64,000 nucleotides of DNA from Gracilaria domingensis (Eukaryota > Rhodophyta > Florideophyceae > Gracilariales > Gracilariaceae): positions 1 through 64,000 of the forward strand of contig VCMS01000208.1 of assembly GCA_022539475.1 (NCBI GenBank), written 5' to 3'. Shown here piece by piece: positions 9,640 to 64,000 of the stretch. A model generated the notes under the pieces. It did not search any database. It was not told the origin of the DNA and saw only the letters and a list, made by a program, of their open reading frames with translations. Every line of letters starts with the position of its first letter. Position 1 is the stretch's first letter. Position numbers and translations under genes: made by a program.

Positions 9640-10681
9640 TTGGAAACTGTGGCACAGGGGGGGCGTTGAGGGTAAATGGTGGAGCGGTAGACCGTGAAGG
9701 TGTCGCATTATCATGGCTGGAAGACATGGAGAGGTATCTAACAATAACTTATCGAGGAGAGTTTTACCTTTGTTGTATATGTACTAACTGTGTGTCCAAT
9801 TACTGCTCGCAAATTTTCGATCCATGTTGAATAGGAACGGGAACGTTCACTTTTTTATTCAACATGGGTCAAAACTCTAGAAAACATGGATTGTGAAGCA
9901 GTGGAGGGTAAATGTGTCGCATTAGCGGACTGGAAGACATGGAGAGGTATGTAAAACGAATGAATCAAGAGGTTCTTGTGTGTTATCTGATGGCTAACTG
10001 TGTGTCTCCTTGCTGCTTCTTGCGGAGTCTTGATTCTTGAATAGGGACGTGAAGGTGTGTTTGGATACGATAACTGGAGGATTCGAAAAGGTAGGGAGAT
10101 ATCGCATTGAAAGTGTTGTGTGCGCGCTATGGGTACTAACTGTGTTTCAGCGTGTGTTTCTGTGTGGTGCCGTGATGGAAGTGTATGTACGGTGATTGGG
10201 ATCTAATGGGATGGAGCGGTAAGAAGTTCAGGTATCGAAGAGACGTTTCTTGGTTGTCTTGAGTATGGCTACTAACCTTGTGTCCGTTTACGGCTTTCTG
10301 TGGTAATGCGATTGAGGTTTGTGGTCTGTGCAAAGGAAGAGGTTACATGCAACAGCTGATGAAGAAGTTGTGGAGATGAGTTCTGGGTTTGATCATGGTG
10401 TTTTGAGGATATGTCGTTGCGGTGGTGGTTCTCATGGGGTACTGCAGCAAATGAATGTTCCACCCGTAGTATTCTCGGAGGCTGGCTGCGTTCGGTCTAG
10501 ACTGGTCCTTTCTCTCGGCTTCCTATGTGGTCCGTTGGTGGACCACGCCAATGGGCCCACTCAAGGTGAGTGGGCCCATTCGGGTGGTCCACCAACGGAC
10601 CACATGGGAAGCCTAGAACCTAGAGCACTAGCAAAAGTGGAGGACTGGAAGTACGGGTCTGCCATCTTTCATACTTGCTAG
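9640..10681 (+). other. Candidate intron-rich gene or gene fragment with TACTAAC-type introns
   Basis: Four short stretches look like spliceosomal introns on the plus strand. The first has donor gag|gtatct at 9733 with gtactaac at 9781 and an acceptor near 9834. The second has gag|gtatgt at 9947 with ggctaac and an acceptor near 10044. The third has aag|gtaggg at about 10091 with tactaac and tttcag at 10150. The fourth has cag|gtatcg at about 10232 with ctactaac. The stretch between the first two is fully open (ERERSLFYSTWVKTLENM...). The last open stretch, 10319-10681, has 120 codons. Some exons appear to be copies of one another (gtcgcatta...ggaagacatggagag twice). I could not chain all exons in one frame and recognise no domain, so this may be a decayed gene. 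Confidence 0.35.
10517..10613. repeat. Long hairpin, ~44-bp arms
   Basis: The left arm starts ggcttcctatgtggtccgtt and ends gggcccac. The right arm is its near-perfect inverse, ending aacggaccacatgggaagcc, across a loop of under 10 bases. It lies inside the 120-codon open stretch at 10319-10681. Confidence 0.85.
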
Positions 10682-10799
10682 TTTTAGATGTCTAGTATCA
10701 AAAACATAGCATACTTTAGCACACCTCGGAATCATCCATTAGTCGTAGTTTTCTCTAGGTTTTCTTCCGAATGGAAATTACAGAAATTGCAATTTAACA

Positions 10800-12435
10800 T
10801 ATGAAAAACCAGCATTTCGAAACTAGCATTTTTGGACTGCTAACTAGCAAAACGAGAACACAGACGAGCTTCATTTTCAGTTGTTCCGTAGCTGGAAATA
10901 ATTCTGAAATAAGCGAACTCTCATCATCAAAGACACGCAAATATCGTCTCCTGATACGAAGGATATGGTAGATATCCCTGCATTTCTGATACAACGACTC
11001 GTCACATACAGAGTACTGGAAAAGAGCACGACGGCTCTCATTTCATGCACCAAAGAGATTGTCAGAAAAGTCATGGCAGTTAATTAGACTCCCATAAACA
11101 GCTCTACTTCGAATAAACGCCTTCAGCATAGATTCCGAGCTAGCGAATCGGGTCAACGCCATTTTGTCGGGAAGAACGGCGGTTCGTGGCGGGATAGGTC
11201 TACCTAACGTGTCATACTCGCGGAGAGACGAATTGTATCCTGAGTTGCGTAGCTGACTGTTGTGAACTTCTTTCAGTTCCTTAAACCGGTGGTACATCTT
11301 TTGTCGAGCGCGCAAAGCGCTCACTATTGTACTCACAGTAACAAGAACCTCGTTAATCCATGACAAACTTCCAATATCTTGCATCAGTAAATTCGCTAAA
11401 TGAACCTGATCTTGACACAGTTGTACATGACTGAACTCCTCTACTAGCTTTTCCTTTGCTTTCACACAGCAACTGGTATTGTCACTCGTTATCGCACAAA
11501 TGTTCATCATGTCCCCAAAGTTCTTCATCACAGTTGTAACCGTGTCGGCGTAGAAGGATGCGTCGTTGGTCCGAGATCCTGTGTAGATAGATCGAAGAAA
11601 ATATGTTTTCCGCTCGCGCTCCATACCAGTCACCGACAGTAAAACATTCACCACGCTTTCCGAGTTTCCGTCAGTCCAGCCATCGAAAATTAAAGTTCCA
11701 TAACCGTGTCGTAACGAAGCATGAATTGAATTCTTTGCTCTCGCCATCATTTTGCGGTAGTACGCATCGAGGTATTTGCCACCAATTTTGAGCAACAGTG
11801 GGAATTTCTTCGGCACTACTCGGTTGCAGAAGTTTAAAGATTCGGTACAGTTCGTTTTCTCCTTCTGTTTTCTTAAGTAGAGAAAATGGAAGCATATGAT
11901 TGACAATAAGAGACGTAAATAAATCGCTCAAATCAGAAAGCAAAAGAAACTTTCGTTCATCTTCCGCATCCTTTTCGTCTTTCGTCATTTTCTTCGAGGC
12001 TGTTTGAGAAGCCGAAATTGACTTCCGACTTCCGGTTTTCTTAATCGGAGTTGCAAGAACCCCAAAACACATCGAAGAACTTCCCATTCGACGAGAGTGA
12101 CGCGAAAAAGGACCCTCTTTTAGTAACCTCTCCTTGACAAGTTTGGGAACTCCATCGCACTCTAATAAATGCTTGCCAAGCTGCGTTGCATTTGGTGTAC
12201 TAGCCTTAGAATCATAATCGCAACATTTGCACACGATTCGTTTCTTCAATTCGTTGCTTGTTTCGGAAACAAATGGTTCAACATTGAACCAATCTTGAAG
12301 CCACCAGCTTTTTTTCCGACCGGGAGTTTTTCCGCTCGTTGATCCTCGTGATTGCGCTGAAATGACCTGGTTCGAAGACATACTCGAAGCAAAACTTGAA
12401 GAAGTATCGTTGAAATGGAACGCAAGCGTGCACAT
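10800..12435 (-). pseudogene. Decayed hAT-family transposase (BED finger, DUF659)
   Basis: The ATG at 12435 begins a frame with a BED-type finger (IVCKCCDYDSK, then LGKHLLECDG). A frame change at about 11.80-11.87 kb leads into the DUF659/RNase H-like region: LIFDGWTDGNSESVVNVLL (first catalytic Asp), AITSDNTSCC, and CQDQVHLANLLMQDIG, the usual C..H..nL..D block. An in-frame TGA at 11043-11045 interrupts the part that ends IYHILRIRRRYLRVFDDESS. The C-terminal hATC dimerisation segment with the conserved Glu is not found, so the copy is truncated as well as broken. Terminal repeats were not identified. Confidence 0.75.
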
Positions 12436-44287: not shown

Positions 44288-44754
44288 TGTGGTATTATGA
44301 GCCTTAGGCTTGGTTCCAGATGATCGGTCATTGCTGGTGTGTGGATGGTGGTCTACAGGTTGTAAACGTGGGGCTTTGTCGGCCCACAAGGCTCTATTTA
44401 TTTCTAACTTGTAGTATTTGTACCATAGGTAGTATAGACAGTACACGTGGTGCACTGCGTTACAGTGCACCACTCCGGAGGTCGAGGGGCCTCGCATCCG
44501 ATACTTATGCTGTGCGAGCTGCGTCTCCCTCCTGTGGTAAAGCAAGAGACCCCTTGGCAACTATCTGACCCCCTAGGTTAGCAAGTACCAAAGACCTTGA
44601 AGGTTTTCAAGCCATCGCTACGTCGCTCGCCGTTTCCTGTAGGCACGACCGATAGCGCTGGCCCATTGCACCTTTTTACCAGTGGTCTCGCCGTTGGCCT
44701 CTCATCCTTTGGACCGCTCCTCCCGTGGTTAGTGACCCGTGCCACTATACTACA
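44288..44754 (+). repeat. 5' LTR
   Basis: 467 bases, begins tgtggtattatg and ends ctaca; the mate is at 53439-53905. A possible primer-binding site starts with tggtctcccgac a few bases after its end. Confidence 0.93.
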
Positions 44755-44879
44755 TTTCTGGTCTCCCGACCTAGAATTCCGCACGGAAGTGAAGAACGAC
44801 CTCTAGAAAAGACGAACTACCGGAATTCCACCATTGGATCTGGACTACCGACGGACTGGTAATATAAGCAACCGCCATC

Positions 44880-46950
44880 ATGGATAACAATCAACCTATT
44901 CAAGAAGACCCTCGTACAACAGTGGCTCAAGCTATCGGAACTCCTCCACCGCTCGCTCATGTCGCCGGACCCTCTGGTGACAACGTAAAAGACCGTCGGA
45001 GTACCCGCTCGCAGCCACAGGTTAATCTCCTCACACCCGTGGATAATCCCGAGAGGATTAATCGTGACGCCTCTTTGGCTGGGAGACTCCGAGAACGGCT
45101 CGACGAGTAACGCTCGCAACTCAACACACCACAGGCACCACTGCAAGAAACCGTTGGTTCAGTAACTACCGATGGACTTGCTGATGTCTTATGGCCGAAG
45201 GTTCGAGAGATGCTCGACGCTCGACTCGAAACCCTTGTGGATCTCCGAGTCTCTGTCGCTCTCGCAGAGCACGCCGACCAACTGGCTGAACGTGTCCTCC
45301 CAAAGGTTCTCGAGTCCGACTCTTTCGTCGACTCGCTTGCCTTAGGTATCCGACGTGAGGTGACTCGCCAGGTAGGCTCGCTGCCCTCCGTGGGTGGAAT
45401 CCAAAGTAATCCATTGGTACCCGTATTGCAACCCCGTTCCGAACCACCGGGAGCAGCTGCGTTGCCAGCCCCTCGCCGGATTCAACCACAGGTAGACCAA
45501 TCGGGCGTACGTCCAGGGGGCAATAGAGACGCCCCTCGGCAAGAAGGCCTAATGGCCGTGCCACCCGTGAGGTACCCCGGGCCCAGGGCCCCCGAGCAAG
45601 CATAGGTTTAGATGCTGAAGATGAAGAGCCGCCATTGGAAGCTAGAAGTTCTGACCGTAGGAAAAAGAGAAGTCGAAGAAGGAAGAAGTCGAAGAACCAG
45701 AGGAAAAGCCGGAGGAACTCCAGCGGTAGCGAATCCGATTCGGGTTCGTCGAGTTCCAGTGGCTCAGAGACGGACGAGGCGGCTGTTCGACGCCTCAAGA
45801 CGTTGGTAACAACCAATGAACTCTTCAAGAGAGTATTGGAGTACCGCACGTATCACCTGGCTGACCAGTCGGCGCGTTACTCTAGCTCGGTGGCCAAGAA
45901 GGTCGCCAGATGGGCCAAACGGATGCACCTAACCATAACGGAAAAGTTTTCGGGATCCGACCCCATTTCTATCCTTAGGTTTCTCAGTCTGTTCCGTACG
46001 GCCTGTGATCAGAACGGTGTCCATGAGGGTGCCGCTCTGTATCTTTTTCAGTTTTTCCTCCATGGGCAAGCGCACGACCATGTCGTTTCTAAGATCTCTG
46101 GAACTGCGGACCCCGTCGACGCAACCGATCAGGAGCTCCTCAGGTCCTATCCAGAGGTCGTTCATTACCTTTTGGAAACCTACGGGACGGATGACGTCAT
46201 TATGGACGCCCATCAGGAAGTCATATCCTACAGGCAAGGTTCGAACGTAACCGAGAAGGACCTCGCAGACCAGCTTTGGAGGAAGGCCTATAGGTGTGGG
46301 AATGTGTTCTCCGAGAACCGGTTAAAGCAGCATTTCATCGCTGGACTGCTACCGGCCATCAGGACGCATGTTCGAAATCACCATATGGCCCACCCTAATC
46401 TCTCCTATCGACAGTTGGTGAACTATGCCAAAGGTTACGGGAAAACCTATAGAACCTCCCGCCGGTCAACTGATAATGACGCCAGGGGAAGAGCGACACC
46501 TGTCCGGAAGATCTCTCAGGCCCATATGGTTGAGAGTCCGGAAAGCAGTGCCTCAGGTTTATACGAGAAGGACGGAAACGTTCTCGCAGTTTCCTTTGGT
46601 TCAGCTCCTTCAGGTGCATCCTCCATACCGTCAACTGGAATAACAACTCCTTCTGAACAGTCTACGCCGAAGTATTCCCCGATCCAACCTCGCAGGGATG
46701 TCTTCCAACGCTCCCGTCAGGCCTGCTACCTTTGCCTTTCAACGGTTACTCCATGCGATGGCATGAAGTTCTTATCGAAGGAAACGAAGGAAAACCTCAT
46801 GGCCTTAAGGAACGAGAACTACCAGGCACGGTGATCCGAAGGAATGTTCACCCGTCAGGCTCCACGGTATACATCGTCCCCGGGCACGTCGAGGTACGCC
46901 ACACCATTGGTAACGCCCGTTAGGGCTCCAACGGTTAATGCAGTTTCGAA
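44880..46950 (+). pseudogene. gag region of the Ty3/gypsy fossil
   Basis: Contains a gag-like core (about 45.8-46.5 kb) with a basic Ser/Arg/Lys-rich stretch ahead of it and the retrotransposon gag pattern RQLVNYAKGYGKTY near its end. Its nearest relative in the window is the gag region of the 31-36 kb fossil. Broken. Confidence 0.75.
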
Positions 46951-47166
46951 CCCTGTGGATGAGGTCACCGCAGAAAACCATACGGATGTTCTAGAAGAAG
47001 TGCAGTCCAGTGGTCACGCGTACACCACTGGTGGAAAACCTCACTCGGAAAACGCGTAGAGGAGCGGCTTGAGGCGCGCCGCCCCTCTCAGGATCTTTGC
47101 CTCATCGCCGAAGGTGAAGAAATTTGTCCAAGGGAATTTCAGAAGCCTTCGGATACTCAACAGTCG

Positions 47167-50100
47167 ATGACACTAAAGGAGGACAGGAGTTTGGCACAAT
47201 GGTATGATGAACTGGACAGCGAAGCGGATACCCCAATATGTATCCTACGGAAGGAGAATTACAAAGTGAGACATACCATTGGTTTAACTGCCTCAAGGTC
47301 ACCGGTCGTCACCAGCGTCCTGAACACTAGAGCAGGGCCCAACTTGGTTCATCCAAAGGTTTTACCGGCTGGTTGGGAGGACGAGGTGAAAGTTAGAAGA
47401 ACTCCAAGGGTAACTGATGCATCAAAGCGACCAATGGATATTAAAGGAATCATTCCTCTCTGCTTACAGATTGGCGACCTTCGGGTCCGTACTTGGTTCC
47501 TTGTTTGTCCTACCTTAGGTGCAGAATGTCTCCTTGAGACGTCCTTCATCGACCGATACGTGAAGGCAATCTACCGCGGTCTCCGGAAGGTTTCCTTCTA
47601 CCGCACCCGTTCAGTGGCGATTATCGGTTCCAAATCTGGTCCCGACGCCAACCCACGTCGCCCTCCGCTGGCGAAGAATACCGTTTCTAACAAGGTTCGG
47701 TTATCCCGGGCGATAAAGATACCACCCATGACGCAGATTGCCGCTTTGGCTCACTGCGAAACCTCTGGTCTCGTGACGCTTCAGAATAATCCGAGGACGA
47801 TTCAGCGTCACCTTTCCTTAATGGCCAATGGAATCATAGATTGCAGACCAAAGGTTCCCTTTCTGGTTAATATGAGCAACTTCCGGGACCACTCGGTACG
47901 CTTACCAAAGGGTACTGTCATCGGAATTGCACTACCAGCTCCAATGGTTATCATGGAAACCTCATGGGATGAACTCACCCCCAGTGACGACGAGGACGTC
48001 GAGACTTGGGAGGGGGAGGTAAACCTTGGAGAGGAATTCGAATCGTACCGTCCACAGGTTATCGAGCTTCTCCGAGAATTCAAATCCATGTGGTCTCGCC
48101 AATTGGGGGAGATTCGGGCTACGAAACACCGAATAGACCTTAAGGATGACGCTAAGCCGGTGTACCAACATCCGTACCGTACAGGCCTTAAGGGACGCGA
48201 GATCGTAGCGAAGCAACTGGCGAAGATGCCTAACGCTAACGTCATCGAGCCAGCGCCACCGCACGAATCCCAATGGGCTAGTCCTTTCGTTCTCGCGGCA
48301 AAGAAGGACGGGTCCGTAAGGTTTTGCATTGACTACCGAAGGTTGAACGCGCTGACCAAACGGGACAGTTATCCAATTCCTAGAATGGACGATTGTCTCG
48401 ATTCCTTAGGCGAAGCAACGGTATTCACCACGCTGGACGCTAATTGGGGCTATTGGCAGATACCATTGGACAACGACGCGAAGCCCCTCACGACTTTCAC
48501 AACCCACGAAGGATTATTTCGCTTTACACGGATGCCATTTGGTTTGATGAACGCACCGGCTACCTTCCAACGGGCAATGGATATAATACTATCCAGAGTG
48601 AAATGGAAGTTTGCCTTGGTTTATCTGGACGACGTAATTATATTTTCGAAAACCGTTCGGGAACATTTCACCCACGTGAGGTCAATCCTGAGGATTCTTC
48701 GTGAGGCTGGAATTACATTGAAGCTGCCGAAGTGCTTCTTTTTCCAGGCCCCAGTGGATTATCTTGGCCATGTGGTTCGTCCTGGAAAGCTCCAGGTCTC
48801 CAAGAGGACTACGGATGCTATCCGACTGGGGAAACCACCGAGGACCCTCACGGAGTTGCGCTCATTCCTTGGGCTTTGCAATGTATACCGTAGGTTCGTC
48901 CAAGGATTCTCAAGGATCGCGGCACCCCTGAACGACATGCTGAAGAAGGGTACGCCGTCGGAATTTGACTGCCTGACGGACGAACAGTACGAATCATTCC
49001 AAACCTTGAAGGAGAAGCTATTGAATCCTCCCGTACTTGCATTACCGGAGCCGGATAAACCATACATTTTGGACACTGACGCTTCCGATGGACAGATTGG
49101 ATGTGTTCTCCTACAGGAACAGGAATCTCCGAAGGACTATCGACCTATTTTTTACTGAAGTAGGACTCTGAACAGCGCCGAACGGAACTACAGCACTAAC
49201 GAAAAAGAATGCCTTGCCATCGTCTGGGCAGTGCTGACCTTGAGGCCTTACCTCGAAGGAGTTCGCTTCACCATCAGGACAGATCACCACTCTCCCTGCT
49301 GGCTATTGAATATGACGGACGCGTCCAGCAGGCTAGCCAGGTGGAGGCTACCACTCTCTGAGTTCGAATATGATGTAACCTATAGACCTGGAGTGAAGCA
49401 CCAATCGGCGGATGCACTGAGTTGCATCCTTACCGATGGAGATGACGATACTCCTTTGGATGACAAAATACCCACGCCAAACCTCGAAAGATATGAGACA
49501 GATCCAGAGGGTGACTTCCTGGTGGCAACGGTACAGTGCCCCGATGGTGACCTTGACCAAGAAGAGGTTTACTTGGTAGACTGACCGCAGGAGTGCCAGC
49601 ATGAGTAATTGCACCTAGAGGTTAGTGTAATTGTGCCGGAGGAAAAGGAGCTACTTCCAATCACATTAGAAGACCTCTTACAGGCTCAGAAAGCAGATGA
49701 ATTCTGCCAAGGGAAGGCACACCTGGTTGGGACTAAGGGATGCCCGTTTGACTTTGACCGCTTCGGATTACTCTGCCGCAGGTGCGCGCTGGATGGTTCT
49801 ATCCAGAAGGTCATTCCTAAATCCCTACAGGCACGCTTTCTCTACCTCGCACACTACCCACGATTCGCTGGTCATCCCGGAGGTACTCGTATGTACCAGA
49901 CCCTTAGGAAGCACTTCTACTACCCGTTTATGGCTAACGACCTTTGGAACACAGCAAAGACCTGCGCTTCTTGCGCAAAGGTTCGTGGAACTCGAGCACG
50001 CCACCAGGCTAAGCTCAAGTTGTTTCCAGCTGCCGGACCATTGGAATTTATTGCAATGGATATCCTTGGGCCACTCCCAAAGTCGGTACACGGCAACCAG

Positions 50101-51468
50101 TTTATCCTGGTTACAACCGACAGGTTTACCAAAACCACAAGGGCCATCCGGCTCAAGAACACTACCGCAACGGATGTGTCGATGGCGTTCCTTACGCACT
50201 GGGTTTATCCTTATGGTCTGCCTCTCTATCTCCTGACGGATAATTGAAGTCAGTTCGTGTCGAAGTTCTTTTCGCACTTCTGTGCTACCTTAGGTATTAA
50301 GCAGGTCACGACGACAGCTTATCATCCGCAGACCAATGGACAGGCCGCGGGGTTCAACAAAACGCTGGTTAATCGTTTGTTACACTACACTGCTGGGCAC
50401 CAATTGGATTGGGACGACTACGTGGAGCCACTGGTTTATGCCTACAACACTAAAGTTCATAAGTCTACAGGCACCACACCCTTTGATCTAACCCTGACTC
50501 GGCAACCCTTGCCATTGTCCGTGGATGTGAAGACCTCTTGGTTCCCTCAGGACATTACCAAAGGCATGAACCCGACGCAGGCTAAGCGCTACGCACGCCG
50601 AAGGATTGATGATATACTCCATACGGCTCGCACCACGCTTACAAGAGCCCAGCTCAGATACAAGGCTGACTTCGATAAAGCCGTTCGCCACGCTCCTTCC
50701 TTCAAGGCTGGAACGATGGTCTATCTGGATAGGGCTCCCTTGGAAAAGCCAATGGATGAAATGGAACAAGCCTCGAGGAAGCTACTTCCGAAGCCTACTG
50801 GACCTTACAAGGTTCTGCGTTCCACCTCGCATACGATTACGATTGAACGCGATGGGCTTCAGGAAACTGTCGCTGTTGATCGCGTCTCAATAGCACCAGC
50901 GGTCACTGTACGCTCCTCTTCGGGTACCGAGCCTATATCCAGGGGCATTTCCCAGAGACAGGAACCTACTAATGGTCCTTCCTTTGGAAAGCGTCAAACC
51001 AAAGGCCCATCTACGCAAGCACCTCCTACAGCTACTCCAAAGGTTGTCAGCGCTGATCCATCCATGGGTACGGAAGCTTCCGCAGAGGGCAATGACACCA
51101 AGGGATTCGCTGCTTTAGATGAGATGGAGCTTCCTGGGGATTCATTTGAACCATTGGTTGATGGCTCTGCTGCCGAAGACACGCGACCTGTGCAGATTGA
51201 AGCACCTTCTCCTTCAGACTTTGGTCCGCTTGATACGATGGATTTACCAGAAGAGGTCTTACCTAAGGAGTATGTGGTAGACCAGATTGTTTCCGTTGGT
51301 CTCGATGACGACGGTAATGTCATCTACAAGGTCCGATGGTACGGCTATCCACCGCAATTCGACCAGTGGAAGCCAAAGGAGCACATTCCCGAGAACTTTA
51401 TCCGAAGGTTTTCGAAGCGCCGTGGCCAAACGGAGCGCGCCTTCAAGGCTGGCGCGTACGACACGTAG
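47167..51468 (+). pseudogene. pol region of the Ty3/gypsy fossil: protease, RT, RNase H, integrase, chromodomain
   Basis: Protease-like segment near 47.3-47.5 kb. Reverse transcriptase at about 48.2-48.8 kb (RFCIDYRRLNALTKRDSYP, RMPFGLMNAPATFQ, LVYLDDVIIF). RNase H at about 49.0-49.5 kb. Integrase at about 49.7-50.6 kb (HHCC-like part, then the catalytic core AMDILGPLPKS and YHPQTNGQA). A C-terminal chromodomain at about 51.26-51.41 kb (YVVDQIVSVGLDDDG, IYKVRWYGYPPQFDQWKP), which in this clade steers integration to methylated-histone chromatin. Broken in a few places. Confidence 0.88.
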
Positions 51469-53438
51469 GACACTGCGGCGCACTGTCCATGAAGGACACG
51501 AATGCCAACGGATAACATGTCCAGCGGATGTTTTCGATATCCTCATTCCTAACTATCAACCTAACTGGCTAACTACGCTAAAGCGCTAACCATTGGCCTG
51601 CTTACTGCCCGCGTGCTGCATGCAACGGCGCGCGGCGCGCCAAAACATCCAATGGAAATTGCCTCAATTTTTCGAAACGGCTTGCCACTCGGGTTTTGGG
51701 GCCAAAACAAAGATTTGCACGTATCTCGGCTTCTGGGCCGCGCAGAGAAAAGCCGACACTGGATTTGAAACCTCTGGAATGTGTCCGTTTGGAGTCATTA
51801 TGGCCGATTTTCTGGTCGTGCACTGCCCAGGTGCGACGGCGCGCGCGAGATCTGGTGGAAATGATCAAAAAATTTGACAATTACTTTATTTGATCGCCGG
51901 CACATCGGCCGCTGCCAGGCCCTGCAATTGGTTTGGCACTCCGAAAAAACTGGCATTTAATTTATTTGATCAAACCAGTGGCAATTGCAGCGCGCCTGCC
52001 CTGCCAAGCCGCGCCGGCTGGGAAGTTCTGCACCTCGAGGCATGGCAAGTCTGCACCAGACATCGTGCGGAGCACCTGTCTTAAGGAGGGGACAATACCT
52101 GATGGAACAACAATCTCGGCGCTATTTGATGGGCTAGTCTAGAGGTTGCAGCGTCAATTTTGTTGCCAACGTTAGACCCATTGGAAACCATTGGAGCATG
52201 TCGTCGAACCCGATATCATTTCATAGCGTTACAGTGTGCTGGGGACATGAAACTCGGTTTACTGCCAATGGAAACCGGTGGCAATCAAACGAGACGCTCG
52301 TTAGAAAGGAATATGAACCATTGGAGATCTTGCGGAGTGGATCGTTGAAACAGGACTGCGAGGACCAAATGGGAATAACTACTGCCTACTGTGGGGCAGA
52401 GTTCTTTCGGAAACCAGGCAATGCGGTGTTCTTTGCGAGGCAGTGTTGGAAGCTATGCAAATCTCAGAATGGTAGCCTTCCTCCGGAACTGAGACTTTCC
52501 AAAGGACCTGGCCTCATAATGGGACTTCATAGTGAGCATCCTCAGGATCAACCTGTCTTGTTTGGAACCACTGGTACTGTGAGGTCATTTGGCACAGAAT
52601 GCTTTGGTCGTTTCGACGCAAGAGACAGGCTTGATTTAGCTCACGTACTAGGCTCCTGTAGCACTACCAATGGAGAACGAGATGAGCAAATGTTCAATTA
52701 TCTTGCCTTTCAGCATGGGACAGAGTACTGTGACGTGGATGATTGCTGTCCATTCCTCGATCTGCAGTAGATGTACGGTACTCAAATGGTTTTCTTAAAC
52801 CATTTGCATCCCATGTGAGCCCACTAATCGTGGACTACAGTCCTCGGCAACTACTGGGAAGGCATGTATCTGTTTTTACCGTGCAGGATAAAGCCGAAGG
52901 ATTTAACACTGGATATTCAGCCTCTCGGGAAACGAACAAGTCCTCCCGCTACCCATGATGGACAAAATGTTTCCCTCGTGCGTCCAACGGTTTGTGTTGC
53001 GCTGATGTGGTTCAACTCGTCTTTGAGATTCCCGCAGGCCCTCTGTTGCTATCGCAACGAATCGTTTGTCCTCCACTCACTCCACTGGGCCCCAGCGAAT
53101 CCTGGATACGTTAGCATAGCCCCCGGCAGCCTTGAGAGCTTACGTCTGCGAACATTGCTCCAGCGGCTTGGTACGTTCCATTGGTTATCTTCTGTGCCTC
53201 ATCGGCAGTTGATATGTTTAAATGCCGGTCATGGAGACCACAATACGTGACGTTTTGGATGTTATGGTGACCATGGGTCTGAATGTCTTTGAGCGGAAGA
53301 GCACGCACTGGTGAGGCATCCAGAGGAGGTTCAGGATTTCAAACGGGGTATGGTGTTTTTGTTCCGTTGGAATATGCATGCAACAAGATCTGAATTTATC
53401 GCGACTTCCCGAGACGGCAAAGTCTAAGGGGGGAAGTA
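51469..53438 (+). other. Region between pol and the 3' LTR of the Ty3/gypsy fossil, with an extra open stretch
   Basis: About 2 kb, unusually long for this position. It includes a 190-codon open stretch at 52198-52770 from an ATG, moderately Cys-rich (TTAYCGAEFFRK, FARQCWKLCKSQ), with no membrane segment or recognisable domain. I make no functional claim; it could be captured sequence. Confidence 0.4.
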
Positions 53439-53905
53439 TGTGGTATTATGAGCCTTAGGCTTGGTTCCAGATGATCGGTCAATGCTGGTGTGTGGATGGT
53501 GGTCTACAGGTTGTATACGTGGGGCTTTGTCGGCCCACATAGCTCTATTTATTTCTAACTTGTAGTATTTGTACCATAGGTAGTATAGATAGTACACGTG
53601 GTGCACTGCGTTGCAGTGCACCACTCTGGGGGTCGAGGCGCCTCCCAGCCAATACTTATGCTGTGCGAGCTGCGCCTCCCTCCTGTGGTAAAGCAAGAGA
53701 CCGCTTGGCAACTATCTGAACCCCTAGGTTAGCAAGTACCAAAGACCTTGAAGGTTTTCAAGCCAGCGCTACGTCGTTCGCCGTTTCCTGTAGGCACGAC
53801 CGATAGCGCCGGCCCATTGCACCTTTTTACCAGTGGTCTCGCCGTTGGCCCCTCATCCTTTGGACCGTTCCTCCCGTGGTTAGTGACCCGTGCCACTATA
53901 GTACA
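53439..53905 (+). repeat. 3' LTR
   Basis: 467 bases; begins tgtggtattatg right after the polypurine tract and ends gtaca; flanked by the target duplication aaact. Confidence 0.93.
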
Positions 53906-54030
53906 AAACTCAAAATATATTCTCCGTTCTCAGCATGGCGTCGATCTTGACTGTCGCTCGACCTCCTTCTCTTTTCGGAGGACCTTCCCTTGCAGTCTTT
54001 GTCGTCGTTTCTCGTTCATTTCTTCTTCCC

Positions 54031-57000
54031 ATGGTCTACTACTGTACACATGAGAACCGTGGGTGCCCCTTCGTTACTCGCCGAGCAGTCTTATCTCTTC
54101 AACAGCATGTCAACCATTGCCCGTTTCGTCTGAAAGCAGCGCTGGAAGACGACAATAGGCGGCCCATTCGGAGAAGCAAGCGTCTCAAGCTTTCCGCACC
54201 CACGGCCGCATCTTCCGAAACGGTCACTGCCCCTTGTCGCCTTCCCGAGCCTCCGGTGTCCGAGGACATCGTCGACCCCACTCCGTGCGCCCCTCCTACT
54301 CCGGACACTTCGCATTGTGTTTCTCCTTCACCGGGTCCCGCGTCACTAGAGCGAGAACACCGAAGCATTCCCCGCCCAGTGCCTTCTGAGGAGGCCCTCG
54401 GTGATTTGCATATGGATTATCTCACGGTTTGCCTGGCTTCAGTAGCTTCCAACCTTGGTCATCGTGAGGCAGACGAGCTAATTGGGCTACTTCGGGACCC
54501 GTGATTCTCGCAAAAGCGATTCAACGAGACCATAACAAGTTCCAAACGCTGTACAGAACTGAAGAACGCCATTTTCGAACGATACGCCTCAAAGGACGGT
54601 TTCAATCGAAGAACTGTCTCGCCAGAAGGATGAAAGTTCAGAGCCACCCTCTACACGAGAGACCCCGTTCAGACACCTGTGAAACAGCTCCAGTTGGCTA
54701 ACAACGAAAACACATTCTTCCACCCTATACCTCAGACCCACTCCACGAAAATATCTCACCCCATGTCCGGCTCTCTCGCAAGAGACGCCACCTCAAAACT
54801 TAAGGAAATGGTCATGGGCTCTTTGGATAGTAGAATAGTGTGGTACTCCCAAGAAATAAGTTACAGTGAATCTTTCGTAGGTCTACTGCAGATATACACC
54901 GATAACTCTTCAACAACTCTAAAGCAAACATCGGTTACCGCCTATCCTCTTCACCTCATATTTCTCAACTTCTCCGACGAGCTACGCCGTAAGTGCATCC
55001 GTGATGACCTCACAGTAGTGGCATACTTCCCTACCACACTGATCGAGGTTTCCGCATCTGAAGCAGACGCAATGCCATTCGTTTCTAGCAAGTCTCTACG
55101 CGAGTCCAGGATTCAAATCTATCAAGAATCTCTTCGTCAAGTCCTGGAGCCCATTCTAAATCTCAGGCAGGAAGGTTTTCAGTTCATCGGCGAAGACAAA
55201 CTAAGTCGAGTGTGCCATCCTCTGCTTGCAAGTTATTGTGCGGATATTCCTGAGGCTAAGGACATTCTGTCCATTCTTCATGGGACCAAAACGGAAAGCC
55301 CGTGTCATAGATGCAAAGCCCCTCGCTCATCTTTATGCAGTTCCATTAACACCTCATTCAACGGACGTTCTCAAAAGCACACGAAAAGCATCCGAAAGAC
55401 ATACACATCTATCTTGCAACATGCACAAAAAGACGAGGCGGAAGGACGTCCACGTCGTGCGAGGGAGAGGAGATCTCAAGCGGATACTCTGATGCGTTCA
55501 AATTCCATATCTCTCATTCCTTCGTTCCTCGAAACTTCCGTAAGCCTTGGAATGGTCCCGGGATTGTCTCCATACAGTCTGTTCTCATTCGAACCATTAC
55601 ACAACTTCCATCTCGGCATCTCGAAGCTGATAAAAACGGTCACAATCGAGAGACTGCAGTCAGACACCCTGTGCACCACAATAGGAACATCTGCATCGCG
55701 TTCATTTCGAACGATACGCACCCAACTCCTCAACCATGCAAACGCAATTCTAGCTACAATAGAACGCGATTCTCCTGCCAAAGGTTTACATATCGATTTC
55801 TCCACGCAGGACAAAGGCAAATCTTTGAATGGTATCTTCACGAAAGACAGTCTCCGTGGAATGCTGGAGGCCAAAAACTACAAAGCACTTGACATATTCT
55901 TCCCCTTCATAGGAGCATTCTTTGACATATGCTGTGGAGAACAGGACGTTGCCCCAATCACAAGCGTTTTTTCTCAGTACTCGGACTTGCTTTCGACCTT
56001 ATTCAGATACAATCGTGACCCGTATTGGACTGAAAGCTCTCTCCTGTGTCTTAGTTCGGAGATTGAAGCCTTCAAGCGTTCCGCAACAAAGACTCTGGCG
56101 GATTTTCATCCCTCCAGACTGGGAACTGTGAAGTTTCATCTTCTCGATCATCTCGTGGACGATATTCGCCGTCTGGGAAGTATCAAGTACTACGACGCAG
56201 GCATATACGAACATGCACACCTGCTATTTAAGAGACACTACAAAAAGACGTCCAGAAGAACAGCAACGGCTGTGGAGGAGACTATTCGCTCCATTGAGCA
56301 CTGACATGTTAGAAAGCAATGGAATGGCAATACTCCTTACCAGCGTAATCCAGGTTGACCAGGAATCTCCAAACAGCTCCCTCGATTTGCAATGAGAGGG
56401 CGTTCTTTCACTTTACGAGCTCTTCAAAATTGTGTTTCAAGTATGTCCAGTTCAAAAACATGGACTGCTGTTAGAGAGATGTTCTCAAGTACGGACACAA
56501 GGTCGATTCTTGACCAAATTGGTGAACAGGCCCTTACTCCTTTCCTCAGTCTCGTGAAAGAAACACTGGATGAGCAGTCTATTACATACTTCCCAGAAAA
56601 GACAAGGATAACTCTGGTGAATTCGGCCGTCGTGAAAGGCGGTTTCGTTCCGACTCTTGAACACTTCGATTCGTTTTCTAAGGCACTTAAACTGGGACGA
56701 CCCAAATACCCCATCATCCAACGAGTCTTCGCTTCTTCAGCATTTGGTCCCAGTAGAAAGCCAAAGTTTTCCACTGTATTGGTAAGCGGAGAAGATTCAG
56801 AGACTTGGGTTGCCCAGGTAGTCGCTCTGATTCGAATATCTCTCCTTGATTCTGCACTTACCGCACCAGAGGTGGCATTCGTCCGGTATTTCGGGGTTTC
56901 ACCCCCCCCAACAAACATCGACCACATATTGAAATGCATATCTTTACGGTCGGCTACAAACGATGAAAAGAACCACACTCTTCCGTTCCCTCGTCATTCC

Positions 57001-57210
57001 AAAGCGGAGACTATCGTAGAGTTAACTCCTTGGTACGGGATGGTTCCGGCTTCTGCACTACAGGGAACTGTCCATGTTGTTCGATCAAACTACCCTGCTC
57101 CACCTTTTTGTCCTCCACTTCAATGGTTTCAACACCGATTCTACATCAATCGATTCTATCATGATTCAGATGAAGGACCAACTGAGCACGTTGATCTTGT
57201 ACAGCCTTAA
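54031..57210 (+). pseudogene. Gene C of element 2: Plavaka-type transposase, full length
   Basis: A single frame of 1,060 codons without any frameshift, interrupted by four stops, all TGA (54502-54504, 54631-54633, 56302-56304, 56356-56358). I prefer the ATG at 54031, just before the C2HC finger (YYCTHENRGCPF, then LQQHVNHC), because the other copy also has an ATG there; the frame itself opens at 53935. Next come an NLS-like run (RRPIRRSKRLKL) and the Plavaka core: YTDNSSTTLKQTSVTAYPLH, then LRRKCIRDDLTVVAYFPTTL, CHRCK, FEPLHNFHLGISKLI, KFHLLDHLVDDIRRLG and YEHAHLLFKRHYKKTSRR. The C-terminal part ends FYINRFYHDSD. The role as DNA transposase comes from the family. The stop codon overlaps that of gene B on the other strand. 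Confidence 0.82.
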
Positions 57211-59594
57211 ACATTAAGGGCTCCATCCTCTACATGTTCACCTTGTGGTGCCTTTTCTTGTGATCCTGTGCTACTTCCGAAATCGTTCATGTCCATTTCC
57301 TTGAACTCCATATCCCCTTCCTCGCATTCACCAACGAAAAAATCGCTAGTAGAACCCAATCTTCGGCTCACACTGTCATCTTCGGCTCACACTGTCAATA
57401 AAAAATTGTTCTTTCACAGTGAGGTAAAGTCCTCCGTTCGACGGCCTTCGATATCCAAATGTAGCCTCTCTCATGTCATTACCAAGAACCTTAGTCCAAT
57501 CTTCCGTTGTCGTTCCAAAACTATGAAATTCGCTGGAATTGGTCCTCAAGACATGTTGCCTAACATCCCCCAGAACATTCTTTAAACACAGAGGTAGCAG
57601 TTCAGCAAACTTCTTTGTAAACAGTTTCTGTCTCTGGCCACCCCTTGACACATCCGTACTTAGAAGGCTCACAACCGTCAACACCCAAGCGTTTAAACGT
57701 GCGAGCAACAGTATTGTGCCATCTAAAAAGGTGCCCGTATCCTTGTCTTCCACATCATACCCAATAAACTCCTTCACTACTTGTACCCCGACACGGTTTC
57801 GGAAGAACAAGTCTTGATCTTCCGTCGGCATATCCTCGACATTGTCCGCATTGTACTTTAGACGAACAAATGGGGCTTTTCTCCACCATGAAGTGTTCGG
57901 TACACCATTTTCGTCAAGACGCAGTATGTTCTCCTGCGCTTCCTTCAACTGCATTGTGAGTTCGTCAGCATTCTCTTCTACCAGCTTTGTTCTTCTCCGA
58001 ATCGGATCGTACCCCAGGAGCAGAAATAGTTTATCCCTCGTATTTCTCTTCCGAACGCCAACGACGTCACTCATGGTCTGCCGCATTCTCTGCCTAAGGC
58101 ACATATCTGCACAAAGTTCCAGTATACACCTGTCGGTAAGAGATGCTTTCCTAATACCTTCCCAGCTCAACTCCTTCAACTCGCTTTCAACCATTTTCTT
58201 CAGCAAAGCATCTGGCCCCCCCTCTACCGACGGTGTGAACATGCCAAAACTGCCCAAGAGCTCCACGGGGTTTTTAGGAACCATGTATGAACCACCTTTC
58301 TCCGGCTCAATAAGCCCTTCCCCACTCTCAGTTGCGTCCTCCACCTTCTCGGCACGGTTACCCCAATTTCGAGTGAGCGATTCACCTTCGAGCCATAGTT
58401 CACTTGTTGCTCTCCTTGCCCACGTCAGCATGTTGTGATACACTGCTCGAGCAACCCCTCGAAACTCGTCACACACCTCAATTTTATGCTTCTTTCGACC
58501 TGTCTGCCCAGGTTCACCAGTTTCAGTGCCCCCCTTAGCCCTTCAATGTCTAGATCCTTCTCTCCAAGCCTCTTTTTCAAAGCCGTACTCTGCTCTTGGG
58601 CGACCTTCACTAGAATACCCCGAACCATTAAGTCCTCTTGTAGCGTCTTAACCTTTTCTTTCAAGCAATTCAGTTCATTTAAAAGATCACGTCTGTTCAT
58701 AGAGGTTGAATTCACACCAGTGTGGATATCTTCCGGTATTTACCTAGCCTCCTCGGCGACAGGCCCCGGTAATGCCGCAGGATTCGGTGTTTTTTCGTTA
58801 TCGGAACTATCCTCATGTGCCATACCCTTAGACACGAGAGGCTGCAGGCGTTCTGTGTGCACCCTTGGCACGGCTCCGAGCTCCAACTCCCGTGTCTGTC
58901 CTCCTCCATGGCATCGTATATCAGATGAATTGGGCCCCGTACGAGCTGCAACGGCCCCCGTTCTGGAAAGAGGGGAAGGTCGAGGAGTAAATCGTCTATC
59001 AGTTGTCTCTCGATTTCTTATTGTCTTTCTCCCTTGTCCGGACCCATTGCGAGGCATAATACGATTCATAGCGACCCCAGTTCTAGAAGACAGGGAGGGA
59101 CGTGACGATCTTAATATACTAGGGCTCTCACGACTTCTCGTAATTGTCCCTTGTTGTCCAGATCCACTGGGCGGCGTAACCCGCGCCCCAGTAGCTCCGG
59201 TCTTCGATATCGGCCGGGGACATGAAGGTTTTGGTTTCATACGAACCTCTTCAGTTCCAGTTGTCATGACCTCCTGTCCTGACCGGCTGGGCCGAGTTAC
59301 CTCATCTTCTTGAAGAGCAGAGACAGATGCACGATTTGCATTATCGGCAGTTGACGGCACAACATCGTTCGCTGATCCACGGATTCTTGACCCAATCCCG
59401 GAAGACGCTCCGCTGCGAGATGGGCGAGAGAGTACTGTAGAAGGACGCCCACTGACTGTCTCCTTCGTCGAGGACGACTTCCCTTTAGGAAGTGCGGTGC
59501 TTGTAGCCTGATTCGTATCATCCGATGCTCTTCTCTTCTTCTGTCCACTCTTGTTTCGCTGCGTACTATTTCGCTTTCTCGGCGTTATACCCAT
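57207..59594 (-). pseudogene. Gene B of element 2: basic coiled-coil protein
   Basis: Starts with a basic, Ser/Arg-rich region (MGITPRKRNSTQRNKSGQKK) holding several imperfect repeats around P[SN]GSGQ and R[ST]G. An in-frame TAA at 58740-58742 is followed by the coiled coil (LLNELNCLKEKVKTLQEDLM). One frame change near 58.50 kb leads to the conserved C-terminal half (GVARAVYHNMLTWARRATSE, LCADMCLRQRMRQTMSDVVG), which matches gene B of element 1 throughout. A 19-bp tandem duplication at 57359-57396 throws the last ~60 residues out of frame; beyond it an acidic tail (FVGECEEGDMEFKEMDMNDF) runs to a TAA at 57207-57209. Function unknown; its conservation beside genes A and C shows that it belongs to the element. 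Confidence 0.72.
57359..57396. repeat. 19-bp tandem duplication inside gene B of element 2
   Basis: atcttcggctcacactgtc occurs twice with no gap. A duplication of 19 bases shifts the frame. Confidence 0.95.
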
Positions 59595-59840
59595 GTTGTG
59601 GAGATAAATGGGGTAATGAAACGAAATTGTTGGGGGGGGAGGGGGTGAGGGGGGGTTGCATGGTTCAGATATTCCGGGAGACTCCGCAGTTCCTGCTTTT
59701 TAGGAATTTGAGGTGCCCAATGGGTCGCAAATATCGCCGGTACAAATAGATGAAGAGCTCCAGTGTACATGTACAACGCGTATTGCAGGCAGCTGCAACA
59801 TTCACAATCATATTTACTTTCTATTCGGTACTGAACTCAT

Positions 59841-62800
59841 CTATTGCTTCAATGTCAGAACCCAGTCCCAGGCGTACTGCTCTCCGTAGTCGAAATACAA
59901 CTCTTCGCCACTCTCAATATCTCTTACTGCTCTACAACAAAGTAGAGATTAGTTAGAAAGGTCGGACTTAAACTGTATCACTGACTTCGCTTCCACCATC
60001 TGCACATTGGCACTTCCAGTCCTGTTTGACCGGGGCTGCGATAAATCGGGATCCCCGGCATGATATCTGGCGTCGTTAATGTAGCCCTCGATACAAAAAG
60101 GCGCCGGGACAATGTACACTTCGCTCTCCTTTCTATTTTGAGCCTGTCTTGGTCTGTTCCTCAGGTGCAGAAACTCCGTACCAGTCACAGTGACCATCAT
60201 AGAAAACAACTTGTACCGCACTGGAGTTGCTCCGAGACAGCCACTTCCATACGTTAAGTGTCTTTCCTTCCGGTTCGTCAGATCCGTGTATACCAAAGTT
60301 CCATAAAAATGACAGATAGTTTCCCCAGGCAATATCTTATATTCCGTGAACACCCCCATACCAGTACGGGGATGTCGAATCTTAGAAGATGCTACATGTA
60401 AGCGATAGTGATTGGCTTCAACAGTCAACAGCATATGCATATACATTAGATTCAGAGTTCCTCAGTACTTCTTCTCCCAAAGATCTACAGTATGCTGTCC
60501 ACACTTGTCGAAAAAGTCCCAGTCCTTCCAGTATCTTCCTAGGAACTGAGTAATATGTGCAGGCATCACTTGGTACTGGGGGTATCTAAATGGAGCCTCC
60601 CATTCAAGCCGACCTCGGTCCCGATGTGGAACCCGTCCATAAGTAGTTGAAGCAGCATCCACTACCTCTTGTTCAACCAGGATGTCATTCTTCCCCCCGC
60701 GAAGAACTTCGGCCATAAGAGTGGTTATATGGTGCTTCGCATGGCTGAAACATGGCCTATTCTTCTCGCACCCCAAGAACTTCCTATGCTTTGTCAGCGA
60801 TAGGCACGCCATACCCGTAGAAAAAGTTCCCGCGAACATGTCCATGACAAGATCACCCGGTCTTGTGAAGCGACATATCAACTCTTTCACCAACTCCCTG
60901 GACTTCTGCTCCAGTTTTATGTACTGCCCACTTGGTACTGAACTACCTGGCTCATTTACCTTCTATGTCAACCACTCCCCCGCTCTCGGTTTTGGCACCC
61001 GGTCAATTACATTCCTGTTAGCTGGGAAAGTAGAAGGAATGAAATTGTTCTCCTCAAATGGAGTAATACTGGCTTTCTCGGATGGTCGCAATCCACGCTT
61101 CACCCCATGACCGGCGTACTCCGTTACGGGCTGTATCCCAAACTTTCGTGGATTCCCTCCAACATTACTTCGATCCCGGATGAACACCAGTGGATTCCCA
61201 TCCACTTTAAACGAAGGCATGAGTTCTGGCTTACCTTCGCTTCCAGCTTCATCTTTCGTACTCGCCGTTTCCGAAAGTATCCTGTGGCAAACATGAAACT
61301 GTGCCATGGCACAGAATATAATGAAGTGCCCACCTGACCGAAGCGCGGAACTAATTAAGTCAGCCATACTGATCATGTCATCCTCCCTGAAGACATCGTG
61401 AGCACTATTCCGTTTGTTCCCCTTCCTTCGAGTGTTAAAGGGAGGGTCTCTTAGGACAAGCTGTGCCTCACCCCATAAAACCTCACTCTGATTCACAAAT
61501 GTTTCGTGTGTGTGCCTCAGGTCCTTTATGTCACAGTTGTACGCTACAAAGTTTGACTTTCTCATCCCCTTCCACACCTTGTCCATATTCATTCGAAGGA
61601 GACTGGATATCCCCTTCATGGGCGGCTCAATACCAGTGTTTTGGATGTTGTAACCGGCAACCCGAGATTCATGCTCCGCAAGATTCACCGGCTTCTGGGA
61701 GTCGTCGCTATCGGAGCTCACGAGGTTCATATACTCTCGACGAGGTGGGGCTGGGGCAGAGTTGGTCGAAGAAGGTTCGGCATTACCGGAAGTTTTAGGG
61801 ATTTTCGTGAGTTCAATATCAGGTTTCGCGTGAATGCCGACATGGAACCCTGCCGCATGACGCATATCCTGTATCGGTTTCCATAGCAACTCCGAAAACT
61901 TCTGAAATCGAGCAGGCAACTCACCGGAGTCAGAACCAAATACGGTATCCATCCGTATCTCCGAAAACTCTATCCAGTTCCTCATCTGATCAGCCCGTAA
62001 GCTATAGAGGCTATCGTGGGTGCATATGGTTTCGAGGTCTGTCAAAAATTCCTTAGCCAGTATTCGGAGGTTTGTATCGCATTCATCACTCAAGGTCTCC
62101 ACCGATCCACTAGTACTGCTCTGGGGCACATCCTGTGTGTTGAATCGAGTACTCTGGCTCGGCGGGACATGACCAGACTCCCGTGTCTCTAACGCTGTAT
62201 ACTTCAACGTCTGCATATTCATGTAAATGTATGGTTTCACCATGTGCTGAACGTTCGTGTATCCAAGATGAGCCGCACAACAACTCCATGCCCATACGAC
62301 CTCACTGAAAGCGAATCCCAGTCGATCACAGTTGTCTTTGGAGAACGACGTAAAAGTGGGTATGTACACAGATGGTGCATGGTTCACTTTTCGTCTCTTT
62401 TTCGGTTGTTTCTTCTTCATCATTCTGATGTTGTCGTTCTCTCCCATTATGTGGCCAAGGTATGATAAGTATATAACGACCCCAAATGGGTCCACAGATG
62501 TTCGTGGGATAAACACTGTCGTCTTCAGAACCTGCCTTTTTCTGGTCATGAAATAACCAGCCAGGAATCGCACCGGTAGGTATATACCCTTATCCATGGA
62601 GAGAAGGAAATAATCGCGGGGTCTCTGGTTCTCATCTCCGTCCTTCTTGTCAAGAAGCTTCGTCACAAGGTAAGGTTGCTCTACAGGTTTGTTATTCACC
62701 ACACTATTTCGCAGCTGCTGCAGTGTCAAGTTCTGCAGGTTCTTGGAATTAGTGGCCTCCTCAAACATCTGCCTTGCCTCCGAAAATTCCTTATATTTCT

Positions 62801-62978
62801 CGGCGCAGAACTCTATTAGCCCTCTAAACCCCACGTCCCGTGGCCGATCAGGGCCTCCATCGCTGTTTGCCAAAGCATCGCGAAGAACCAAGAAAAGTCT
62901 GACATATGCAAGGAACGCCGGAGGCGGAGCACTCATGTCGATAGGATGTATCTCCTCTCCATCATCGGTGGAATCCAT
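59841..62978 (-). pseudogene. Gene A of element 2: N-terminal domain + beta-class DNA methyltransferase + SET domain
   Basis: A 1,046-codon frame with no frameshift and three in-frame stops (TAG 60963-60965, TGA 60462-60464, TAA 59949-59951). Residues 1-330 form an unrecognised region with an NLS (KKKQPKKRRK near 190). Methyltransferase: motif IV RDPPFNTRR at about 510, LRSGGHFIIFCAMAQF, TEYAGHG, then motif I DMFAGTFSTGMA at about 713 and KFLGCEKNRPCFSHAK; the order IV-I is beta class. SET domain at about 865-1035: TGMGVFTEYKILPGETICHF, YGTLVYTDL, VPAPFCIEGYINDARY and AVRDIESGEELYFDYGEQY. The usual SET NHS motif is replaced by INDARY (IDDASY in the other copy). By family, it would methylate DNA bases and protein lysines; both activities are inferred. 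Confidence 0.8.
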
Positions 62979-63280: not shown

Positions 63281-64000
63281 AAGTGCCGGGAGGAGTGTTT
63301 TGGGAGGTCTCCGGAGGGTGCCAGAATGTGGCCAGAACGTGCCCGCGGGCGGGGGGGGGTCGGTCGTATTAGGGTAGGTACCGTAACACGACCGGACCCT
63401 CCCTCCCGCGGGCATAAAATCGCACATTTTTCAAAAAATCGCCCAAAACGTGCCCGCGGGCGGGGGAGTCCGGTCGTGTTAGGGTACCTACCCTAACACG
63501 ACCGGACCCCCCCGCCCGCGGGCATAAAATCGCACATTTTTCAAAAAATCGTCCAAAACGTGCCCGCGGGCGGGGGGGTCCAGTCGTGTTAGGGTAGCTA
63601 CCCTAACACGACTGGACCCCCCCGCCCGCGGGCACGCTCCTTCCGGCACTTCCGGCACCCACCGCGTCACCTCAGTGCACCATCCCGGAAATTAGGGAGT
63701 GTCTGGAGGGTGGAGAAAACGGGATGGTCACCTCAGTGCACCATCCCGGAAATTTGGGAGTGTCTGGAGGGTGGAGATGACGGGATGGTGCACTGAGGTG
63801 ACGCAGTGGGTACAGGAAGTGCCGGGGGGTGTGTTTTGGGAGGTCTCCGGAGGGTGCCAGAATGTTGCCAGAACGTGCCCGCGGGCGGGGGGGGTCGGTC
63901 GTGTTAGGGTACCTATCCTACCCTAACACGACCGACCCCCCCCCCCCCGCCCGCGGGCATGTTCTGGCCACATTCCGGCGCCTTTCCGCGACCTCCCAAA
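63281..64000. repeat. Nested palindrome array (foldback structure), continues past the window
   Basis: Three tandem ~110-bp units each hold a 74-75-bp near-perfect hairpin (63340-63414, 63451-63524, 63561-63634) built from tgcccgcgggcgggg, ggtcgtgttagggta and their inverses, separated by a ~36-bp AT-rich spacer (taaaatcgcacattttt). A second structure at 63666-63802 has gtcacctcagtgcaccatcc twice directly (63666 and 63727) and once inverted at its end. A fourth hairpin of the first kind lies at 63876-63959. The 63281-63350 segment recurs directly at 63817-63886 and, diverged, inverted at the very end. The whole resembles the complex inverted ends of foldback-type elements. Confidence 0.85.

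Follow-up and report, generated by a model that had tools for sequence, protein, structure and literature searches.

A large Plavaka-type DNA transposon of the red alga Gracilaria domingensis with a methyltransferase-SET fusion gene between its ends

The first 64,000 nucleotides of contig VCMS01000208.1 of the red alga Gracilaria domingensis (GenBank assembly GCA_022539475.1) hold a transposase gene, a coiled-coil gene and a gene that joins a DNA methyltransferase to a SET domain. This stretch, bases 1-64000 of contig C208 in our numbering, is called the window in what follows. The locus raises two questions: are these the genes of one mobile element and, if so, what would a transposon do with an enzyme of that kind? 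The answer to the first is plain. A search of the assembly (77,892,253 bases in 680 contigs) shows a large, repeatedly copied DNA transposon, with a transposase of the Plavaka type (part of the CACTA-like group) and the methyltransferase-SET gene lying between conserved ends. A preliminary description of the locus had proposed that a transposase is paired with methylation enzymes in one element. That pairing holds, now with defined ends, at least two element families and a conserved gene order, but the gene set is larger than the one proposed.

The three genes do adjoin in the window, as had been stated (coordinates in Table 1), but the interval 54031-62978, which had been put forward as the element, falls well inside its true borders. 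The right end, at 42257, is the point at which similarity stops among eight right ends compared, on seven contigs (the remaining fetched copies do not reach or retain the right end of this family, family 1); in element orientation it reads ..GCATCTGCAAGAGACAGACG. The left end, CGTCTGTGTTCTGCAAAGTGG, was located by comparing contigs C28 and C250, and in the window copy it lies at C208:64535, just outside the window, of which 42257-64000 holds most of the copy. The termini are CGTCTGT..ACAGACG at both ends. Within the copy sits a foreign retrotransposon of 9,618 bases with long terminal repeats (LTRs) of 467 bp that are 95.5% identical to each other, and with a reverse transcriptase in 47167-49155. 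AAACT flanks it on both sides (44283-44287 and 53906-53910); past it the family-1 sequence resumes and terminates at 42257, and the transposase frame starts 30 bases past its other edge. An element limited to 53.9-63.4 kb is accordingly rejected, since the right end was found on the far side of the LTR insertion and the left end lies outside the window. The borders enclose the transposase, coiled-coil and methyltransferase-SET genes and split none of them off. The window copy itself is dead and internally deleted: it is without the ParB-like gene of longer copies (see below), beyond about 250 bases at its left end nearly everything up to the promoter array is gone, and its flanks differ (AA versus TC), with no target duplication. 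A relic resembling a left terminus, CGTCTGTGGTCTGCAATGCACAG, is found at 42119, 138 bp outside the right end, and possibly belongs to an adjacent element.

The ends recur throughout the assembly. The right-end 20-mer has 567 matches (304 + 263) at no more than two mismatches and the left end has 584 (282 + 302); the reversed-pattern controls have none. Pairing by script of 91 right and 100 left ends listed, with pairs defined as adjacent, inward-facing and no more than 30 kb apart, yields 45 inward left/right pairs versus 2 inward pairs of the same type and 11 outward pairs. The lengths of the 45 cluster near 10.3 kb (12 pairs at 10.1-10.9 kb), 13.9 kb (10 at 13.4-14.5 kb) and 19-24 kb (11 at 18.9-24.4 kb), with a median of 13.8 kb; a rough count from 567-584 ends and this median suggests that the element family may account for about one tenth of the 78-Mb assembly. 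Among 20 pairs hand-picked from the 45, the 2-bp flanks are identical in 11, about 1.3 being expected. The 29-kb spacing of three transposases on C28 had pointed to a tandem array or virus-like concatemer, a reading that was rejected: about 5.5 kb of unshared sequence, present in no other fetched copy, separates successive elements there, between one right end and the next left end.

The transposase is identified by its profile match. The piece at 54679-56301 (plus strand) matches the Plavaka family of Pfam, PF18759, at E=4.9e-18 (65.9 bits, against a cut-off of 26.3); it matches no other Pfam family at E 0.1 and does not qualify as a Harbinger transposase. It has a C(2)C motif (CHRC) at residue 209 and an H(3)H motif (HLLDH) at residue 487, both of which are present in the transposases of family 1 and of the second family described below, and the 2-bp target duplication lies within the 2 or 3 bp of Plavaka (CMCT clade). 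Relatives in the genome are many, with open frames of about 1100 codons (best 80 of 1519 candidates scored). Because its termini match neither those of PlavakaA (TGT..ACA) nor those of PlavakaB (CATCA..TGATG), the element is filed under neither (PMC12730594). The same source groups Plavaka with EnSpm/CACTA-like elements and not with KDZ, and the "Plavaka/KDZ" grouping of the preliminary description has to be given up.

The gene set had been noticed twice in the window, in diverged copies, and this is correct: a second set, in the same order and with a matching terminus, occupies the contig start. It comprises a methyltransferase-SET gene at 14-2475 (plus strand, broken), a coiled-coil gene at 3037-5283 (plus strand, an open frame of 748 amino acids) and a transposase at 5624-8977 (minus strand, broken). 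Its right terminus, recognised in one copy only, reads CGTCTGTGTTCTCGTTTTGCTAG on the minus strand and starts with CGTCTGT as in family 1. The proteins of the two families are 29-47% identical, with one 22-residue SET stretch at 68%. Among the SET matches listed, identities fall roughly into groups at 73-100%, 56-67%, 41% and 36-37% (the last being family 1) with a few between, and therefore at least three or four element families exist. The 41% group contains C382 (11156, 36047, 111356), with open frames of 1169-1170 codons.

Gene order is conserved well beyond these two copies. All linkage was counted among the matches listed, and the rates are therefore lower bounds. A methyltransferase gene lies upstream of the coiled-coil gene, on the same strand and within 10 kb, for at least 61 of the 112 coiled-coil matches and at least 61 of the 150 methyltransferase matches (150 of 151 were used); pairs on the wrong side number 0, and pairs in the wrong orientation 0 and 1. 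The transposase faces the coiled-coil gene in at least 27 of 80 transposase matches (none wrong) and the methyltransferase in at least 21 of 80 (one in the wrong orientation, one on the wrong side), and the ParB-like gene is divergent from the methyltransferase in at least 29 of 55 (none wrong). The counts for families 2 and 3 use the first 60 of 86 coiled-coil matches (the remaining 26 are additional pieces on contigs that these already cover) and the first 100 of 150 SET matches, the remainder, at 36-41%, being left out. The SET gene is upstream in at least 49 of these 60 coiled-coil copies (wrong side 0, opposite strand 2), that is at least 29 of 35 in family 2 and at least 20 of 25 in the family-3-like group, the two being split by list position. 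The claim that this is no chance neighbourhood is thus upheld. Nor do the 20 best methyltransferase loci, taken with 1.5 kb of flanking sequence to either side (less for L019), look like stand-alone genes: the coiled-coil start lies downstream in 18 of them, including the window copy (L001) and L017, where its identity is only 38%; of the two exceptions, L018 enters transposase sequence and L020 shows neither.

The fusion gene, broken in the window, has stop-free relatives elsewhere. A relative on C257 has a stop-free frame of 1045 amino acids that matches N6_N4_Mtase (PF01555, above cut-off) at E=4.4e-15 and SET (PF00856) at E=3.4e-7. At least 150 methyltransferase relatives are present in the genome (best 150 of 484 candidates scored), and nine of the 150 listed have stop-free frames of 1055 codons that are 88-94% identical to the window copy (143 residues searched). 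The fusion recurs in 13 further proteins, which align over 88-99% of the queried part and are 29-45% identical there; 10 of the 13 have a precomputed PF00856, and of the others P0010 exceeds the curated cut-off of the SET model and P0002 narrowly misses it, P0009, the third, having been left out of that scan. The patterns used found no relative of the fusion in the IMG/VR viral and the prokaryotic genome collections.

In an alignment of 14 rows, DPP (D511 P512 P513), an R-x-EQK block and D...GT are invariant in all 14. The D713, G717 and T718 of the motif I region lie C-terminal to the DPP(Y/F) of motif IV, which is the beta-class order. On the SET side, G893, N991 and E1026 are invariant and G873, G875, N968, D969 and Y1031 are found in at least 90% of the rows; the GxG, YxG, N-region and catalytic tyrosine motifs are all recognisable, with ND in place of the NH that is usual at this position. 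The nearest PDB sequences to the methyltransferase are DpnA, CcrM and MboIIA, and its NCBIfam neighbours are adenine methyltransferases, matched far below their cut-offs. The motif is DPP, not SPP, which points to adenine N6 as the target (PMC8885841), and the fusion protein is probably similar in action to a beta-class N6-adenine methyltransferase joined to a SET enzyme. For methyltransferase-SET the median ratio of nonsynonymous to synonymous substitution rates (dN/dS) is 0.40 in the 20 stop-free of its 29 rows; the transposase gives 0.59 (6 stop-free of 9 rows) and the coiled-coil gene 0.79 (5 of 10). With all rows included the medians are 0.43, 0.57 and 0.67, in the same order. These values are rough, and they were not compared with 1: four of the 29 rows are second cuttings of copies already in the set, many are partial, and the copies were chosen in part for their open frames. 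The coiled-coil gene has a frame of 798 amino acids on C171; its protein matches no Pfam family at E 1e-3, and of the 8000 candidates scored as relatives none reaches E 1e-3.

Long copies carry more than these three genes. The long form, assembled mainly from C28 (masked stretch included) plus C250, C257 and C171, runs from the left end through a small coiled-coil frame, a dehydrogenase-like frame, a HAD phosphatase, a ParB-like gene and the palindrome array to the methyltransferase-SET gene, the coiled-coil gene, the Plavaka transposase and the right end; at least four frames are thus added to the first three genes, and the end pairs of this form measure about 19-24 kb. The small coiled-coil frame (309 amino acids, minus strand, left half) is called by reading. 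So is the NAD-binding-like start of the dehydrogenase-like frame (310 amino acids, open to 425 codons elsewhere), whose resemblance to hydroxyisobutyrate dehydrogenases of the PDB is at chance level (E=0.4). The HAD-IIB phosphatase matches Hydrolase_3 of Pfam at E=7e-10 and the Cof-type family of NCBIfam at E=6e-9, the latter under its cut-off. The best 150 of 862 HAD candidates are 96-100% identical to the query, four of them containing a stop, and the best 128 of 791 dehydrogenase-like candidates are 94-100% identical, a uniformity that describes the top of each list, where the best candidates were scored. The HAD gene is deleted in C250 and largely deleted in a copy on C8; it is counted as part of the element because of C28, the C8 remnants and the match counts. 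In L043 these two cargo frames lie at 5104-5733 (HAD) and 3575-4504 (dehydrogenase-like). On C171 (joined L029+L030, bases 14112-15569) a frame of 485 amino acids beyond the family-1 homology reads like a further transposase, with an ADRGY stretch.

The ParB-like gene, on the minus strand, has open frames of up to about 1300 codons, and its product matches two G. domingensis proteins at 89-90%. Four of its five PHROG hits are ParB-like partition proteins (E=2.7e-4, 3.6e-4, 0.011 and 0.036), and a [V/I]DGxHR stretch is present in most of the ParB-like sequences seen. In the divergent promoter region a perfect 78-bp palindrome, at 63559-63636 of the window, lies inside a 110-bp tandem array; perfect palindromes around CGGTCGTGTTAGGGTA..TACCCTAACACGACCG, their arms 16 to 39 bases long, occur in 10 of 10 copies examined, the window copy included (C597, whose stretch starts too late, is not counted). 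They are candidate binding sites of the ParB-like protein, and their position beside its gene in 10 of 10 copies is suggestive of parS-like binding. Remnants of this region persist in shorter copies: in the 10.3-kb copy on C8 (read almost whole) as in the 13.9-kb copy on C16 (3.9 kb read), part of the ParB-like gene and promoter array survives and the transposase is shortened. These copies therefore arose by deletion from the long form.

Table 1. Features of the window (positions on the forward strand).
Feature	Position	Strand	Remarks
Plavaka-type transposase	53935..57210	+	One frame with in-frame stops; Pfam PF18759
Coiled-coil gene, basic Ser-rich N-terminal part	57210..59594	-	Broken in the window copy; coiled-coil by reading
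N6_N4-type methyltransferase-SET	59841..62978	-	One frame, 1045 codons, stops at codons 672, 839 and 1010
Divergent promoter region	63299..64000		Palindrome array between methyltransferase-SET and (in long copies) ParB-like gene
Family-1 right terminal segment	42257..44287		Outermost base 42257, plus strand reading CGTCTGTCTCTCGCAGATGC; end common to the right ends compared
Inserted LTR retrotransposon, foreign to the element	44288..53905		LTRs 44288-44754 and 53439-53905, TG..CA ends
Family-2 element	1..10866		Left half lost at the contig start; right terminus 10866

Two further parts of the window stand apart from these elements. A frame of 793 amino acids at 15817-18195 (minus strand) has a weak hAT dimerisation match below the curated cut-off (E=1.1e-3) and is perhaps another DNA transposon; 22001-28000 is an island of 64-76% G+C that contains long overlapping frames and may be a host gene (26627-28600) or foreign DNA.

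What the enzyme is for is the less straightforward question. The gene content suggests a transposon that writes its own chromatin marks. The transposase would cut and insert the element, leaving the 2-bp target duplication; the fused protein would write two marks, probably N6-methyladenine on DNA and methyl-lysine on histones; and the ParB-like protein would bind the palindrome array in the divergent promoter and bring the fused protein to the element. The purpose would be to keep the chromatin of the element expressed and movable despite host silencing, in trans for many copies. Such an anti-silencing role is modelled on the role that TET/JBP genes are thought to have in fungal transposons; it is that analogy that makes it the favoured and, we think, the likeliest one (PMC12730594). 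A transposon with its own writer of DNA and histone marks, kept against silencing, is the best explanation of the whole, and we would put its chances slightly above even; our confidence in the structural part of the statement is much higher.

Several points weigh against this explanation. In all 14 rows another residue takes the place of the second glycine in motif I, the FxGxG that binds S-adenosylmethionine (it reads FAGTFST, with variants); beta-class membership is therefore unproven and activity not assured. The ParB-like call is weak, the protein having no significant match in Pfam or NCBIfam, and one copy, P0014, has a degenerate stretch without the GxHR motif. Shorter end pairs prevail (34 of 45 are below 18.9 kb), and the two inspected, on C8 and C16, are both without the methyltransferase-SET and coiled-coil genes. 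Pairs below 17 kb show the 2-bp duplication in 9 of 11 cases, among them the inserted C8 copy (GG/GG flanks), whereas pairs of about 19 kb or more show it in only 2 of 9, one of these being C8:278212-298361, with a methyltransferase match inside. The methyltransferase-SET gene thus seems dispensable in cis. That duplications are scarce in long copies, perhaps through recombination between copies or through age, speaks against a simple picture. And the effect of the marks may be either activating or silencing.

The opposite proposal is that the marks set by the fused enzyme silence the element or make it limit itself, so that copy number is tamed and harm to the host lowered. The amino-methyltransferase of eukaryotic chromatin that comes closest as a functional precedent is indeed a silencing one (PMC8885841), and shortened copies without the gene, such as that on C8, were inserted. 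A selfish element, however, would have little to gain from a silencer of its own that selection (dN/dS 0.40) maintains in many copies, and we regard this proposal as unlikely. The enzyme could instead serve transposition itself, with methylated or hemimethylated ends timing or licensing the cut, or with the SET domain guiding insertion to chosen chromatin; Dam control of bacterial transposons is established, and the gene belongs to the transposon in at least two families. A derivative without the gene was inserted with a 2-bp duplication, although the protein could act in trans; we hold such a role to be quite unlikely.

The rarity of duplications in the longer pairs is also what would be expected if the methyltransferase-SET, ParB-like and coiled-coil genes were a separate mobile unit or hitch-hiking captured cargo. 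Against this stand the same order and orientation, with a matching terminus, in a second family of mostly 29-47% identity, the SET gene upstream of the coiled-coil gene in most of the counted copies of family 2 and the family-3-like group (at least 29 of 35 and at least 20 of 25), and the remnants of ParB-like gene and promoter array in the 10.3-kb and 13.9-kb copies inspected; a separate unit is very improbable. A last alternative, that these are domestic or viral genes caught in old repeats, dead and without present function, fits the broken window copies of both families; the nine stop-free frames of 1055 codons, the dN/dS of 0.40 and the near-identity of the best 150 HAD candidates leave it scarcely credible, and open frames and selection already largely refute it. 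An extension of the anti-silencing explanation is more speculative, and we hold it to be doubtful: the ParB-like protein would load on the palindromes, spread and tether the two-headed writer, making a portable epigenetic domain whose coupled foreign mark is inherited and shields copies in trans. If true, a partition-type spreading system would have been turned into a chromatin-marking machine, with N6-methyladenine and histone methylation on the same nucleosomes and hundreds of copies shielded. Even the less elaborate anti-silencing transposon would have consequences: one protein writing a DNA base mark and a histone mark, and kept by selection in a mobile element, would offer a natural test of the coupling between DNA and histone methylation; the element would be a route for bacterial-type adenine methylation into eukaryotic genomes.

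Plavaka DNA transposons are reportedly treated in Iyer et al. 2014, and retrotransposons with C5-cytosine methyltransferases are said to be described in de Mendoza et al. 2018. The latter resemble the Gracilaria element in being mobile elements with their own DNA methyltransferase and differ in being retrotransposons with cytosine C5 enzymes, not DNA transposons with amino-methyltransferases. The likeness to Plavaka transposons lies in the Pfam match, the C(2)C and H(3)H motifs and 2-bp duplications as in PlavakaA. Some fungal Plavaka elements also have an epigenetic enzyme aboard, of the TET/JBP kind (PMC12730594, Kojima 2025); unlike them, the present element resides in a red alga, ends in CGTCTGT..ACAGACG, carries methyltransferase-SET, ParB-like, HAD and dehydrogenase-like genes and spans about 19-24 kb. 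The giant Plavaka repeats of Amoebidium differ in their size (up to 50 kb) and their many tyrosine recombinases, and the available part of the source describes no methyltransferase-SET fusion in them (PMC11244446).

The preliminary description knew of no element with this set of genes. In the literature searched (including PMC12730594, PMC11244446, PMC12502185, PMC10388701 and PMC8885841, in excerpt, and leaving out Iyer et al. 2014 and a 2016 review on eukaryotic adenine methylation) no transposon with a methyltransferase-SET fusion is described. That transposons can carry epigenetic enzymes, SET genes among them, is known; the fusion with a DNA methyltransferase and the gene set as a whole look new. 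HarbingerS and oomycete MuDR elements are, like the present element, DNA transposons that encode a SET histone methyltransferase; they belong to other transposase superfamilies, and the excerpt mentions no fusion with a DNA methyltransferase in them (PMC12730594). The closest parallel to the enzyme itself is N4CMT of bdelloid rotifers, where bacterial-type N4C methylation marks transposons for silencing (PMC8885841). Each is a bacterial beta-subtype amino-methyltransferase found in a eukaryote, with a chromatin module attached and a link to histone methylation; the bdelloid enzyme is the product of a host gene, with SPPY and a chromodomain reader, and the Gracilaria enzyme is that of a transposon gene, with DPPF or DPPY and a SET writer.

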